The translations under genes and the position numbers were made by a program. Under the pieces are notes generated by a model, which saw nothing but the letters and a program-made list of their open reading frames with translations, had not been told where the DNA came from and did no database searches. From positions 895,850 to 959,849 of the forward strand of contig JAUJNI010000001.1 of NCBI GenBank assembly GCA_030446465.1: DNA of 64,000 nucleotides, given 5' to 3'. The stretch comes from Actinomycetota bacterium (GTDB lineage Bacteria > Actinomycetota > CADDZG01 > WHSQ01). This document shows, piece after piece, positions 4,007-47,159 of this stretch. How positions within the stretch are numbered: position 1 is the first letter of the stretch; each line of letters starts with the position of its first letter.

Positions 4007-5335
4007 ATGGCAATCAGAGATCGAAGACGAGTCCTCATCGTGGGCGCGGCGGGCCGTGACTTCCACAACTTCAACACTCGCTATCGCGACGACGCCGGCT
4101 CTGAGGTCGTCGCTTTCACCGCCACCCAGATACCCGGTATCGAGGGCCGGCTCTATCCGCCGGACCTTGCCGGTGCGCACTATCCCGACGGCATACCCAT
4201 CCGCAGGGAGGACGACCTCGAGGACATCGTCCAAGTCCAGGGAGTCGACGAAGTGGTATTCGCCTACTCCGACGTGAGCCACGAGCACGTGATGCACCTC
4301 GGGTCCAGAGCCCTGGCGGCCGGCGCGGATTACACCTTGCTCGGCCCCCGCTCCACCATGATCGCGGCGCGCAAGCCGGTTGTGGCGGTGTGCGCGGTGA
4401 GGACTGGCTCGGGGAAGTCGCAGACCACTCGCCACGTCACTCGGGTGCTGAAGGATGCGGGCAAGCAAGTGGCGGTCGTACGGCACCCGATGCCGTACGG
4501 GGATTTGGTCAGCCAAGCGGTCCAGCGCTTCGAGAGCTACGAGGACTTGCTTGAAGCGGACTGCACCATCGAGGAACGAGAGGAGTACGAACCACATCTT
4601 GCGGTCGGCTCCATCGTCTTTGCCGGCATCGACTACGGCGCCATCCTCGAGCGGGCCGAGCAAGATGCCGATGTCGTCATCTGGGATGGAGGCAACAACG
4701 ACCTGCCCTTCTACGTCCCCGATGTTCACATCACGGTGGCGGACCCACTGCGTGTCGGGCACGAGACGAGCTACCACCCGGGCGAGGCGAACCTGCGCAT
4801 GGCCGACGTCGTCGTCATCAACAAGATCGACTCCGCCCGCATAGAGGACGTGTACAGCCTCAAGAAGACGATCGAGAGCGTCAACCCGGACGCCGTCGTT
4901 GTCGAGGCGGGGTCACCCATCGTCCTCGACCAGGACCTTTCGCTCGAGGGCAAGCGAGTCATGGTCGTTGAGGACGGGCCCACGCTGACGCACGGAGAGA
5001 TGACCTACGGCGCAGGGGTGGTTGCAGCCAAGCGCGCGGGGGCCGCCGCGCTGGTCGATCCACGCCCCTGGGCGACCGGCACCATCCGCGACGTCTACGA
5101 GAGGTATCCCCATATCGGCGAGCTCCTTCCTGCCATGGGCTATTCTGACCAGCAGCGAAGTGACCTCGCGGCGACGATCAACTCGAGCGACGCCGACGTC
5201 GTCCTCATCGCCACACCCATCGACATGCGCAAGATCCTCGACCTCGACAAGCCTGCAGTCCGGGCGACCTACGAGCTCGAGGTGACGTCGAGCCCATCAC
5301 TGGCCGAGATCCTGAACGACCGACTCAACCTCTAG
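4007..5335 (+). CDS. COG2403 family P-loop protein (cyclic 2,3-diphosphoglycerate synthetase-like)
   Basis: A 442-residue protein matching the family that includes archaeal cyclic 2,3-diphosphoglycerate synthetase and bacterial predicted GTPases. Residues 1-120 form a Rossmann-like part (VLIVGAAGRDFHNFNTRYRD). A Walker A motif RTGSGKSQTTR follows at about residue 131, an acidic WDGGNNDLPF segment near 228, and a guanine-specificity-like NKID motif near 270. The bacterial function is not established. It converges on the TIGR00300 gene, with a perfect hairpin between them; the pairing suggests a link to amino acid or osmolyte metabolism, but this is inference. Confidence 0.8.
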   Translation: MAIRDRRRVLIVGAAGRDFHNFNTRYRDDAGSEVVAFTATQIPGIEGRLYPPDLAGAHYPDGIPIRREDDLEDIVQVQGVDEVVFAYSDVSHEHVMHLGSRALAAGADYTLLGPRSTMIAARKPVVAVCAVRTGSGKSQTTRHVTRVLKDAGKQVAVVRHPMPYGDLVSQAVQRFESYEDLLEADCTIEEREEYEPHLAVGSIVFAGIDYGAILERAEQDADVVIWDGGNNDLPFYVPDVHITVADPLRVGHETSYHPGEANLRMADVVVINKIDSARIEDVYSLKKTIESVNPDAVVVEAGSPIVLDQDLSLEGKRVMVVEDGPTLTHGEMTYGAGVVAAKRAGAAALVDPRPWATGTIRDVYERYPHIGELLPAMGYSDQQRSDLAATINSSDADVVLIATPIDMRKILDLDKPAVRATYELEVTSSPSLAEILNDRLNL

Positions 5336-6723: not shown

Positions 6724-7479
6724 CTACGCGTCGGCGCGCCGCTTGATGAAGTCGTAGGTGCGCTCGAAGACCTCTTGCTTGTCGAGGTCGAGAGTGATCA
6801 CGTGATAGCTCTTGTCGAGCCACACCAGCTCCTTGTCCTCCGACGCAACGGTATCGAAGATCACCTGCGAGTTGCCCGGATGCACGGTGTGGTCGTTTCT
6901 CGAGTGCATCACCACTATGGGACAGCGCACGCCGGGCAGTGCGGCCCTGGCCCCCTTGATGAAGCGCAGCATCTGGTAGGCGGCGCTCGTCGGGAGCCGC
7001 TCGTAGGCAAGCTCGCGCGCGTGCTTGTCCGCAATGTCGTTGCCAATTCCGGGCAAAGAGCGGGTCAGCCGGCTGATCACCGGGGCCAGGAAGCGGCGGG
7101 GGTCCTTGGTGTAGACGAGGGGTGCCAACGTCACCAGACCTGCGACGTCGTCGGGGTGGCGCGCCGCGAAGTCGAGGGCGAGCGCCGCGCCAAACGACAG
7201 GCCGACTATGAATACTTTGCGGCGTCCCTCGGCGACCTTGGCAAAGCCCGCCTCTACCGCGTCGACCCACTCCTTGGTCGCGCGCGCGTTGAGGTCTTGC
7301 CAGGTGGTTCCGTGGCCCGGCAGGCGAATGCCCTCGACCGCCAGGTCACGTTCCGCAAGGTAGGCCCCGAGTCCTCGTACCGTTTGGGGGCTGCCGGTGA
7401 AGCCGTGGACCAAGAGAACGCCGACGGTGCCCTGGCCAAGGGTGAACTCCTCGGCCCCCTTAAGGATCTGCGGTTCCAT
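6724..7479 (-). CDS. Alpha/beta hydrolase (carboxylesterase / monoacylglycerol lipase-like)
   Basis: A 251-residue serine hydrolase resembling carboxylesterase Est30 and bacterial monoacylglycerol lipases. The oxyanion segment LLVHGFTGSP lies near residue 23, the nucleophile elbow GLSFGAALA near 94, the acid in HSRNDHTVHP near 197, and the catalytic His in SYHVITLD near 228. No signal peptide is present, so it acts in the cytosol. The start is supported by AAGGAG 8 bases upstream. It is divergent from the acyltransferase gene with a palindromic operator-like site between them, which suggests a shared lipid-related role. Confidence 0.88.
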   Translation of the reverse strand: MEPQILKGAEEFTLGQGTVGVLLVHGFTGSPQTVRGLGAYLAERDLAVEGIRLPGHGTTWQDLNARATKEWVDAVEAGFAKVAEGRRKVFIVGLSFGAALALDFAARHPDDVAGLVTLAPLVYTKDPRRFLAPVISRLTRSLPGIGNDIADKHARELAYERLPTSAAYQMLRFIKGARAALPGVRCPIVVMHSRNDHTVHPGNSQVIFDTVASEDKELVWLDKSYHVITLDLDKQEVFERTYDFIKRRADA

Positions 7480-43890: not shown

Positions 43891-44613
43891 TCAGACGGAT
43901 CCACGAACGACCGCTCCGAGTGCCGTCCTTGCCTCCGCGCGCCTCGAGGCGATCGCGAAGGCAGCACCCAGCGCCGTCCACAACACTGCCTGAGTGGCAA
44001 CCGAGATCAGCCTCACGTTCCAGAGCAACTTCGCCGGGATCTGGATCGGGTCGGGATTGCCCGGGAGCAACGCGTAGGCGGCGCCGATGACCGCCACGTA
44101 CCCGGCGCCGACCAGGAAGTGGCGGCGGTGAGCCGGGACCTCGCGGCCGGCGAGGTGGCGCAGCGCCACCCAAGCACCGATCGCCGCCACGACCGACACG
44201 GCGATCATCGCCAGGAACATCTGGGTGCGGTAGCCGATCGTGCCGGGATCGCCCACTGCCGGTGGATTCATCGGGTACTTCACGAACGGGATCAGCCAGA
44301 GCGCGAAGAATGTCGCCGAGGCAAGACGCATCGGACGCTCCCATGCAGAGCCTGATCTCAAGCGGGGGCCGACGAACGCGTAGACGAAGCCGAAGATCGC
44401 TCCGAGGCCAGCGCCCTGGATCACCGTGGCGACAACGAGCCCAACGCGCTGGACCGACCGCGAGAACACCTCGGCAGAAGCCGCTCCGGGCGGAACGACC
44501 TCGTAGCGAAGGGCTTTTTCGATCAAAGGTTCGCCGAGTATCAAGCCGAAAACGCCGGCGACAAGTCCTGCGATCAGACCCGCAACGAGACCACGGCGTA
44601 AATATGTAGCCAC
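43891..44613 (-). CDS. cbtA: Cobalt transporter subunit CbtA
   Basis: A 240-residue membrane protein of the CbtA family. The start RRGLVAGLIAGLVAGVFGLI and ALWLIPFVKYPMNPPAVGDP are typical, and about five to six hydrophobic segments are visible. With CbtB it is a predicted cobalt uptake system found under cobalamin riboswitches. It starts 32 bases after the cbtB stop. Confidence 0.92.
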   Translation of the reverse strand: MATYLRRGLVAGLIAGLVAGVFGLILGEPLIEKALRYEVVPPGAASAEVFSRSVQRVGLVVATVIQGAGLGAIFGFVYAFVGPRLRSGSAWERPMRLASATFFALWLIPFVKYPMNPPAVGDPGTIGYRTQMFLAMIAVSVVAAIGAWVALRHLAGREVPAHRRHFLVGAGYVAVIGAAYALLPGNPDPIQIPAKLLWNVRLISVATQAVLWTALGAAFAIASRRAEARTALGAVVRGSV

Positions 44614-44645: not shown

Positions 44646-44858
44646 CTAGTGACAGGGAAAGCCGAGAAGGTGTCGGCCGTCGTGGAAGAACTCGTGGAGG
44701 TAGTTATTGGCCTCCGCGAGATTCCCCAGAAAGGCACGCAGGAGCAGACCCTGGTCGTAGCCGATCGCGTAGACGAAAGCGACGACCACGGCTAGCACCA
44801 GCCAAGCCCACAGCGGAACGTCGCGCAGCGCCACCGAAGATGCCGCCGGCACCTCCAT
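44646..44858 (-). CDS. cbtB: Cobalt transporter subunit CbtB
   Basis: A 70-residue protein with one transmembrane helix (WAWLVLAVVVAFVYAIGYDQ) and the conserved His-rich end HEFFHDGRHLLGFPCH, which probably binds cobalt. This is the diagnostic CbtB form. An AAGGAGGTGG site lies just before the ATG at 44856-44858. It is the first gene of the cobalamin operon, 43 bases after the riboswitch. Confidence 0.93.
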   Translation of the reverse strand: MEVPAASSVALRDVPLWAWLVLAVVVAFVYAIGYDQGLLLRAFLGNLAEANNYLHEFFHDGRHLLGFPCH

Positions 44859-44901
44859 AGGAAACCACCTCCTTCGGGGTCTTTCGCCCCGGTCGGACGG
44901 C

Positions 44902-45048
44902 AGCGACGCCTCAGTCTCCTGGCTCCCGGATCAGGGCTTGCTCCGGCCTTCCCGCCCGCGAAGCACGGTGGCACGAGTCGGAGTTGGCTCCCCGGTCACA
45001 GTGGCGAGACCGCGCCGGATTCTCACCGGACTTCCTGGTCACGTCGCT
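44902..45048 (-). ncRNA. Cobalamin riboswitch controlling the cobalamin operon
   Basis: On the minus strand the core GGAAGTCCGGTGAGAATCCG with GCGCGGTC and GCCACTGTGACCGGG is followed by the B12 box AGCCAGGAGACTGAGGCGTC. The P1 stem pairs AGCGACG (45048-45042) with CGTCGCT (44908-44902), which sets the ends. It should shut off cbtB and the following 21 genes when adenosylcobalamin is high. Confidence 0.95.
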
Positions 45049-45061
45049 CTGGTCTCCGCCA

Positions 45062-45090
45062 ATGATGGAAGGCAGTGCAGCCCGGCTCAA
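45062..45090 (-). promoter_or_regulatory. Probable sigma-70 promoter of the cobalamin operon
   Basis: On the minus strand TTGAGC (45090-45085) and CATCAT (45067-45062) are 17 bases apart, each matching 4 of 6 consensus positions. The transcript would start near 45055, just ahead of the riboswitch P1 stem at 45048. Confidence 0.45.
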
Positions 45091-45111: not shown

Positions 45112-45136
45112 GGAAAAGACGCGCTATTTAAGCGCG
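45112..45136 (-). terminator. Intrinsic terminator overlapping the stop codon of the upstream gene
   Basis: On the minus strand CGCGCT-TAAAT-AGCGCG forms a 6-bp stem and is followed by TCTTTT. The loop begins with the TAA stop of the gene at 45128-46129. It separates that gene from the cobalamin operon promoter. Confidence 0.6.
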
Positions 45137-46129
45137 CATCTGCGCAGCTAGGCGGTCTCTTCTTGCACGCTCAGCGTGTGTGGAGCCACCATCCGAGGCC
45201 AAGATCGCACACTCAGGTCCACCGTCACCCGCGTCTGCCCGGCAGTAGGCAGCGAGCAGAAGGGGGTCGATCCAGAAGTCGAACTTGCCCGACAGGATGT
45301 CTTCGGGCGAGTACAACGTGAGTTTGGGTCCTGTGAAATCGATCCCCGGCAGATCGGCCAGCGCGCGGTAGATAGCAGCCAAGAACCTGCTCACGTTCCG
45401 CTCCGGCACGTCTATGCCCGCACCTTCGAGGAAGTTGCGCAGACCCACCCTGTAGTGGAAACCATGTTTGCGATTGACGCGCAACATGATCGCCAGGTAC
45501 CACGACAGAAGGATCTTGTAGCGGTCGTTCCTCCCGTGCAGCAAGAGGAACGACGAAGGAAGTCTTGCCGCCTGTCGGCGCGCTCCGGTCAGCTCGTGTA
45601 TCCACACCGGGCCGGGCCCGAACCTCGGTGACGAGCCGGTGGCGCCGCCATGCAGACGGATCGGCGGACCAGGTTCCGCTGAACGCCTGCCACCAGACGG
45701 GCCGGACACGAAATGAACGCGCGTCAGTGCCTCGATGAAACGCTCGAGGAGCTTGTTGTTCCTCGCGCCCATCCGAGCCCCTATCTCCGCAGCCGAGGCA
45801 CCGGCGAACGGCGGTTGCGTACGTTCGCCGGTTGGCCTTTTCCACAGATCCACGATCACGACGAACGCCTGAAGCGCCTTGGGGCCCGCTGCCCGCAAGA
45901 GCGCACGCACCTCTTCTGCATCCGGTCCCTCGACCACGGCCGTAGAACCCTTCGGGGCTTCGAGCCTGAACGCTCTACCGTCCCGGAGCCAGCGATTCGA
46001 TGCAAGCGCGGCAAGGTCGCGCACCAGCATGCTGCACGGGAGATCGATGAGCGACGGCACCCCCAGCCGTTCTTGCGCTGGGAGGCCTGCGCGTGGTCGA
46101 ACGGTTGACGCGTTACCTGCATGTTGCAT
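45128..46129 (-). CDS. Protein of unknown function under cobalamin riboswitch control, possible winged-helix DNA-binding protein
   Basis: A 333-residue protein I do not recognise. It is rich in Arg, Ala and Leu and has no signal peptide or membrane helix. Residues around ASAAEIGARMGARNNKLLER then FIEALTRVHFVSG look like a helix-turn-helix plus wing, and RYKILLSWYLAIMLRVNRK followed by RNFLEGAGIDVPERNVSRFL may be a second such unit. The layout recalls replication-initiator or regulator folds, but this is pattern reading only. The ATG at 46127-46129 lies 43 bases after a cobalamin riboswitch, so it should be made when cobalamin is scarce. An alternative start is the Met before LVRDLAALASN. Confidence 0.7.
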   Translation of the reverse strand: MQHAGNASTVRPRAGLPAQERLGVPSLIDLPCSMLVRDLAALASNRWLRDGRAFRLEAPKGSTAVVEGPDAEEVRALLRAAGPKALQAFVVIVDLWKRPTGERTQPPFAGASAAEIGARMGARNNKLLERFIEALTRVHFVSGPSGGRRSAEPGPPIRLHGGATGSSPRFGPGPVWIHELTGARRQAARLPSSFLLLHGRNDRYKILLSWYLAIMLRVNRKHGFHYRVGLRNFLEGAGIDVPERNVSRFLAAIYRALADLPGIDFTGPKLTLYSPEDILSGKFDFWIDPLLLAAYCRADAGDGGPECAILASDGGSTHAERARRDRLAAQMRA

Positions 46130-46171
46130 CAGCCTGCCCCTATCCGCGAGGAGCCGTGCGGCGCTCAGACC

Positions 46172-46333
46172 GTCTCGGGCAGGTCTCCTGACTCCTGGGT
46201 CACAGCCTCCCCGCAGCCTTCCCATCCCGATCGGGACAGTGGCCTCGTTGCGGGGTGCTCGCCAGTCACAGTGGCGGGTCCGCGCCGGCATCTCACCGGA
46301 CTTCCCTATCAAGCCCATACGGGCACCCGAGAC
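46172..46333 (-). ncRNA. Cobalamin riboswitch upstream of the unknown gene
   Basis: On the minus strand GGAAGTCCGGTGAGATGCCG, GCGCGGACC and CGCCACTGTGACTGG are followed by the B12 box AGTCAGGAGACCTGCCCGAG. P1 pairs CCCGAGAC with GTCTCGGG at the two ends. It is distinct in sequence from the riboswitch at 44902-45048. Confidence 0.95.
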
Positions 46334-46368
46334 AGCTATTCGGTTGTGGCTGCCTTCTCTATCACACA

Positions 46369-46394: not shown

Positions 46395-46787
46395 TCATCC
46401 CTCTTGTGCGGGCTCCGTCGGACGGCCTGACTCCTGCCACGCATTGATCCCGCCGTCCAGGTGCGCGACGTTCGTGTAGCCCATGTCTTGAAGCGTCTTC
46501 GCCGCGAGAGCTGACCGACCGCCTGAGGCGCAATGAAGAATGATCCGCCGATCACGCTCGAACTCCGCTTTGTGATAAGGAAGCGAGGGATCGGCGTAGA
46601 ACTCCAGCATGCCCCGCGGCGCGCTCGTCGCCCCAGGAATCACACCCGTTGTCGCCCGCTCTTGTGGTTCGCGAAGGTCGACGAGCACCGCGTCTGCATT
46701 TTCGACCTCGGCCGCCACCTGCTCGGGCGTCAGGTTCTCGACGTTCTGCTTGGCCTCATTCACGAGGTCCATCGCGCGCTTGGCCAT
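46395..46787 (-). CDS. Rhodanese-like domain protein
   Basis: A 130-residue single-domain rhodanese. LVDLREPQERATTGVIPGA is the first signature and ILHCASGGRSALAAKTLQDM contains the active-site Cys; the six-residue loop ASGGRS is the usual sulfurtransferase loop. It would carry persulfide sulfur in the cytosol; partners are unknown. The ATG at 46785-46787 has AAGGAGAGG upstream; a TTG one codon earlier is unlikely. Confidence 0.9.
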   Translation of the reverse strand: MAKRAMDLVNEAKQNVENLTPEQVAAEVENADAVLVDLREPQERATTGVIPGATSAPRGMLEFYADPSLPYHKAEFERDRRIILHCASGGRSALAAKTLQDMGYTNVAHLDGGINAWQESGRPTEPAQEG

Positions 46788-47159
46788 CAATCCTCTCCTT
46801 CCGCTACCACCAACTCCTTGTCCGCATGATTGGTTGGGTCATAGGGGTTGTCAACTCAAACGATTCCATCGAGACTGCATGTCCTGAGGTTCTCGGTCTG
46901 GAGCTACAGCAGCAGGAGGCAGCGTCCTGCTAGTGATGCTCCGGCGTAAGAAGCATTCGCTTCCAGAGGTCCCCGAGCCACTTCGCAGAGCGCTCGGCTT
47001 CGTCGACCACAGCACGTCTCGCGGCCCCTTCCAGGAGACGGCAAGACCCTCGCCCCGAATCAAGGTGTTTGCGGCGCTTCAGGCTCTGGAGTCCGGCGCC
47101 TTGCGGGAACGGCGCCACCGGCGGCTCAGGGTGGAGGCCTGGAGGTTTACCCCGCACAG
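46788..47159. other. Region without a supported gene
   Basis: No convincing coding sequence is seen on either strand. An inverted repeat AGCAGGA/TCCTGCT (46911-46917 and 46925-46931) with a 7-base loop could be a terminator. A minus-strand frame ending at 46930 has a protein-like end (AKWLGDLWKRMLL) but no credible start. Confidence 0.4.

Follow-up and report, generated by a model that had tools for sequence, protein, structure and literature searches.

A strongly diverged relative of plasmid replication-module proteins, encoded behind a cobalamin riboswitch in an actinomycetotal genome

Cobalamin riboswitches, in a published survey, control genes for B12 synthesis, for transport of B12 or cobalt, and for isozymes of B12-dependent enzymes (PMC3766115). 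What, then, is to be made of a riboswitch that stands ahead of a gene that fits none of these? This is the question raised by a gene for 333 amino acids, here called P0001, in a stretch of 64,000 nucleotides (the window) from the 2.76 Mb, six-contig genome of an Actinomycetota bacterium (GCA_030446465.1). As in the surveyed regulons, the gene is preceded by a canonical RF00174 aptamer. Unlike theirs, its product falls in none of their functional classes.

The order on the minus strand is a rhodanese-domain gene, riboswitch A, P0001, a hairpin, riboswitch B, cbtB, cbtA, and a cob/cbi operon (Table 1). The initial annotation, made from the letters alone, had placed the gene between two cobalamin riboswitches, one ahead of it and the other behind its terminator. 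This holds, as both are strong RF00174 matches on the minus strand, far above the gathering cut-off of 31.5 bits. The distance of 43 nucleotides that was given between riboswitch and gene must be read differently; it counts roughly from the B12 box, and from the aptamer model to the ATG there are 31. Behind riboswitch B come genes for CobN, CobQ, a VWA/AAA chelatase subunit, CobO and CbiA after cbtB and cbtA; the operon also encodes CbiD, CbiG, CbiX, CobU, and tetrapyrrole methylases.

Table 1. Features at the P0001 locus (window coordinates) and the closest relative found.
Feature	Position	Strand	Remarks
Rhodanese-domain gene	46395..46790	-	Upstream of riboswitch A
Cobalamin riboswitch A	46161..46345	-	Ahead of P0001; RF00174, 120.1 bits, E 1.4e-29
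Expression platform	46130..46160	-	Shine-Dalgarno-like GGGGCAGG ending 3 nt before ATG
P0001, 333 aa	45128..46129	-	ATG 46129, stop ends 45128; distant member of a winged-helix family from plasmid replication modules; lacks the C-terminal Cro/C1 HTH that most members have
Codons for P0001 residues 168-260	45349..45628	-	Homologous to second winged-helix domain of the plasmid family
Intrinsic-terminator-like hairpin	45119..45137	-	T-rich tail; overlaps P0001 stop codon
Cobalamin riboswitch B	44892..45090	-	Ahead of cbtB-cbtA and cob operon; RF00174, 77.6 bits, E 2.1e-17
cbtB	44646..44858	-	Neighbour outside the P0001 unit; Pfam PF09489
cbtA	43891..44613	-	Neighbour; Pfam PF09490
P0003, 323 aa	about 264920-265888 (G635, contig C34)		Chloroflexota protein; phmmer match to P0001

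A promoter-like TTGACA-17-AATCAT at 46854-46826, ahead of the rhodanese-domain gene, may drive that gene and read on into riboswitch A. The two riboswitches share 59% identity and stand apart in a tree, ruling out that A is a recent copy of B. A third, weak RF00174 match (32 bits) lies elsewhere in the genome (contig C4, 862062-862136, or about 7063-7137 of locus L016). In several relatives of its family, RNase H-like and membrane-protein genes like those ahead of this third match are likewise followed by a riboswitch, and behind it stands a prenyltransferase-like and DUF4430-like pair or an ABC uptake system.

Is P0001 a gene at all? Over almost the whole open reading frame, its frame ranks first or nearly first among the six by codon usage. 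The mean codon score is low, however: 0.13 bits per codon, where ordinary genes of the window reach 0.23-0.44. The coding signal is strongest in the C-terminal 40%. Because the frame ranks high and yet scores low, P0001 is a real gene, but a foreign-looking or fast-evolving one. A longer reading of 475 amino acids, running upstream through riboswitch A, was taken as an artefact of GC-rich DNA. The gene is present in a single copy in its own genome.

The initial annotation recognised no known B12 family in the protein, and the libraries agree. P0001 has no match in Pfam (its generic HTH models included), NCBIfam, PHROGs, PADLOC or the PDB. Direct searches of IMG/VR and of GTDB contigs returned nothing, and tblastn found no match at E up to 1 in either plasmids or phages. 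The protein was not found in 100 other relatives, and a scan of 397 genomes of the phylum (396 besides its own) with the single sequence gave chance matches only; these weak matches were mostly polynucleotide phosphorylase. AlphaFold2, run on the single sequence, reached a pLDDT of 34 and served merely as a rough map of helices. A literature search for a cobalamin riboswitch together with a replication initiator found no relevant paper.

One lead came from outside the phylum. A phmmer search of 301 Chloroflexota genomes with P0001 gave one credible match, P0003 (E 7.2e-7 for that genome), 34% identical over the 93 residues 168-260 of P0001. The two proteins share the stretches PGPW...L and EGAxIxVPxRNxxRF. 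P0003, the closest relative found, in turn opens a family: with it, tblastn retrieves 46 plasmid records, down to E 1e-10, from Bacillaceae, cyanobacteria, Acidobacteriota and others, most of them labelled "helix-turn-helix" or "hypothetical." In the alignment, the family core consists of a pair of winged-helix-like domains; in most members a Cro/C1 HTH comes after it. P0001 carries the second winged-helix stretch of this family, with its PG-W...L, a long helix, an LLE/LE helix, and an RN-xR recognition helix.

How good is this match? A family profile built without P0001 scores P0001 at 30 bits (E 1e-8), and one realigned without both P0001 and P0003 scores it at 24 bits (E 1.3e-6), some members of these profiles having been gathered with an alignment that contained P0001. 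The next best of 1439 control sequences (1000 shuffles and all open reading frames of the window) stays below 5 bits. With a profile from six plasmid sequences alone, P0001 is again the top protein of the window, in the same register, but at E 0.16. Against shuffles, the C-terminal part of P0001 gives pairwise z scores of 15 to P0003, 12 to the member in genome G428, and 9-10 to the Metabacillus member and that in genome G564. Pairwise scores of the N-terminal half to the family do not rise above shuffles; MAFFT does align the first winged-helix domain. By these comparisons, homology to the family is evident for the second winged helix alone, and not for the first. The N-terminal half could be of another origin.

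It might of course be argued that P0001 is an orphan with no tie of descent to the plasmid family, the match being a generic winged-helix resemblance. Its divergence, its lack of any match in curated libraries or the PDB, and its unmatched N-terminal half would all suit such an orphan. A match of 93 residues in a fixed register, with E values of 1e-6 to 1e-8 and clean shuffles, would not, nor would the two stretches held in common with P0003; further, the generic HTH models miss P0001. An unrelated origin is thus quite improbable. The initial annotation, which saw helix-turn-helix-like stretches and suggested DNA or RNA binding, was right in so far as P0001 is a putative DNA-binding protein of the helix-turn-helix type.

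The family has no Pfam model for its core; it spans Bacillaceae, cyanobacteria, Chloroflexota, Acidobacteriota and Rubrobacter, on plasmids and in a few chromosomes. By profile search, 8 of 251 Chloroflexota genomes have members; of 277 Actinomycetota genomes, one Rubrobacter has a clear member besides the window genome, and a family search added a further rubrobacteraceal one. Other actinomycetotal profile matches were to the generic C-terminal HTH part alone. None of 50,697 phage records holds a member, and a search of IMG/VR for members found none. A better-conserved Chloroflexota member (L218) matches Bacillus plasmids at E 1e-30 and an unannotated stretch of the Paludibaculum plasmid pPfer1 at E 3e-68. 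That pPfer1 member (NZ_CP063850.1, 54385-55254) is 55% identical to L218 and absent from the gene table of the plasmid; it ends near the start of the record, where the sole annotation is a short HTH gene (9-353).

Compared with plasmid members annotated as HTH regulators (those of pPfer1, of Peribacillus plasmids, and of Metabacillus pB218), P0001 has the second winged helix, 93 residues in register, but not the C-terminal HTH_3 domain, most of the DPYR...RLARYL consensus, or the replication neighbours. It does have a cobalamin riboswitch, which no checked member has. The HTH_3 domain is not strictly defining, because P0003 and the members at L219 and L220 also lack it. P0003 resembles P0001 in length as well; it differs in lying beside a DnaB-like helicase, with no riboswitch within about 6 kb.

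What the family does can be suggested from its gene neighbourhoods. A DnaB_C helicase is encoded at L191 and L219, a toprim primase at L219 and L207, and ParA at L218. On plasmids, the Peribacillus member has ParM and a primase as neighbours, the Acaryochloris pREC2 member ParB, and the pPfer1 member a helicase, toprim, ParA and an integrase. Some Chloroflexota copies are without replication or partition neighbours. From these neighbourhoods we infer that the family acts as an initiator, or as a regulator of an initiator; it may well represent a new Rep family. Plasmids of Gloeothece and Nostoc have, directly downstream of the family gene, a gene for a DUF3987 or PriCT-2 protein, and in cyanobacterial plasmids this adjacent protein may be the real Rep, in which case the family would be an accessory regulator. 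The CyRepA and CyRepX replication proteins of cyanobacterial plasmids have been described with helicase-like domains (PMC10899382). They are, like the family gene, found in plasmid replication regions; P0001, unlike them, has no helicase-like domain. The notion of a B12-independent replacement factor, put forward in the initial annotation, finds nothing to rest on in homologues that are replication-module proteins of plasmids and include no enzymes.

Given such relatives, the gene might belong to a live integrated plasmid or ICE, with an initiator under B12 control and a copy number or excision that tracks cobalamin. The family is indeed plasmid-borne, with integrase, Par and helicase neighbours. 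Near P0001 in the window, however, there is no helicase, primase, Par gene, integrase, tRNA site or iteron (direct-repeat iterons were sought beside the gene), and the surroundings are ordinary chromosomal genes: rhodanese, HAD, nitroreductase, cbtB and cbtA, and the cob genes. For the local region this reading is largely refuted, and overall it is barely credible. Insertion of a whole mobile element at P0001 was likewise rejected, there being no integrase, tRNA or repeats locally.

Do homologues keep company with cobalamin riboswitches? The initial annotation had proposed looking for such linkage, and had named as fatal to its view a clear match to an unrelated mobile replication gene, together with a riboswitch linkage that does not recur in other genomes. 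RF00174 is found at none of 19 homologue loci (L191, L207, L218-L226, L233, and the plasmid loci L192-L198), some of which end at contig edges. The linkage is not conserved. Viewed from the other side, cbtAB behind a cobalamin riboswitch is an ordinary arrangement elsewhere in the phylum, seen in many Rubrobacteraceae, and roughly 100 cbtAB loci, including those of a cbtA-centred GTDB scan, hold no P0001-like frame. One locus (L094, genome G084) has two cobalamin riboswitches near cbtAB, at 1318-1475 and 4866-5080, about 3.4 kb apart; a P0001-like frame was not found there. The double riboswitch with P0001 is, so far, unique. The outcome that was named as fatal is therefore largely what was found: a match to mobile replication-module proteins, if a distant one, and no repeated riboswitch linkage elsewhere.

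Directly behind the aptamer comes the Shine-Dalgarno-like GGGGCAGG, and the leader itself therefore probably gates the translation of P0001. The direction of this control is another matter. The GGGCAGG of the Shine-Dalgarno region is perfectly complementary to the CCUGCCC of the B12 box of riboswitch A (window 46130-46184). Should the two indeed pair, the ribosome site would be hidden in the B12-free aptamer and exposed once B12 binds. Activation of P0001 by B12 would fit this pairing, and would be the reverse of the usual direction of riboswitch control. The two leader folds, however, differ little in calculated energy (about -101 and -98 kcal/mol), which favours neither direction. That the protein is made only when B12 is scarce, as first supposed, does not follow from the RNA.

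Could P0001 then be a domesticated regulator of cobalamin genes? Here, its level would be set by B12 through riboswitch A, and it would bind near cbt/cob or other B12 genes as a second layer of control. The place of the gene, between two cobalamin riboswitches and directly ahead of the cob operon, invites the thought, as do its monocistronic cassette with a terminator of its own, its intact frame, and its winged-helix homology. Against this, the pairing of P0001 with a riboswitch recurs in no second genome, members of the family are proteins of replication modules rather than metabolic regulators, relatives have riboswitch-controlled cbtAB without P0001, and no binding site for P0001 is known. 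Such a regulator is possible, if rather unlikely.

P0001 is, we think, probably a chromosomal and strongly diverged descendant of a DNA-binding protein from a replication module, that of a plasmid or of one that had integrated. A single capture would have set it between a B12 riboswitch and a terminator. Its ancestor would have been an "initiator-like" protein with two winged helices, encoded beside a DnaB-like helicase, a primase and Par genes. Gone from the descendant would be the C-terminal HTH_3 domain that is usual in the family, and every replication partner; what is left is a cassette of one gene with its riboswitch and terminator, next to the riboswitch-controlled cbtAB/cob operon. Its mRNA leader folds, by the covariance model, as an AdoCbl-type aptamer, and would gate translation at the ribosome-binding site just downstream. 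The protein would bind DNA through its second winged helix, the stretch where homology is found. It would presumably no longer start replication, because the helicase, primase, Par genes and iterons are missing.

Such a gene may be stranded and have survived by chance, or it may encode a local DNA-binding regulator recently recruited. Because no checked relative has such a riboswitch, P0001 seems to have been captured a single time and not to mark a new family of B12 genes; a stranded or one-off capture is likelier than a B12 regulator that is already established. Counting against the stranded gene, the intact frame of 333 codons, together with Shine-Dalgarno sequence, terminator and riboswitch, argues for a gene in use and not a relic. 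A bolder statement would have the chromosome recruit a plasmid-type replication-initiator-like protein, as a DNA-binding regulator that responds to B12 or as an initiator gated by B12, and this would be the first such protein under a cobalamin riboswitch; it is an unlikely reading.

The plasmid family outlined here probably includes proteins that initiate the replication of large plasmids in Bacillaceae, cyanobacteria, Chloroflexota and Acidobacteriota. With a plasmid-type DNA-binding protein, the targets of cobalamin riboswitches would gain a new class, beyond B12 synthesis, uptake, and replacement enzymes. P0001 would then be a case of a gene from a mobile element captured by a metabolite switch.
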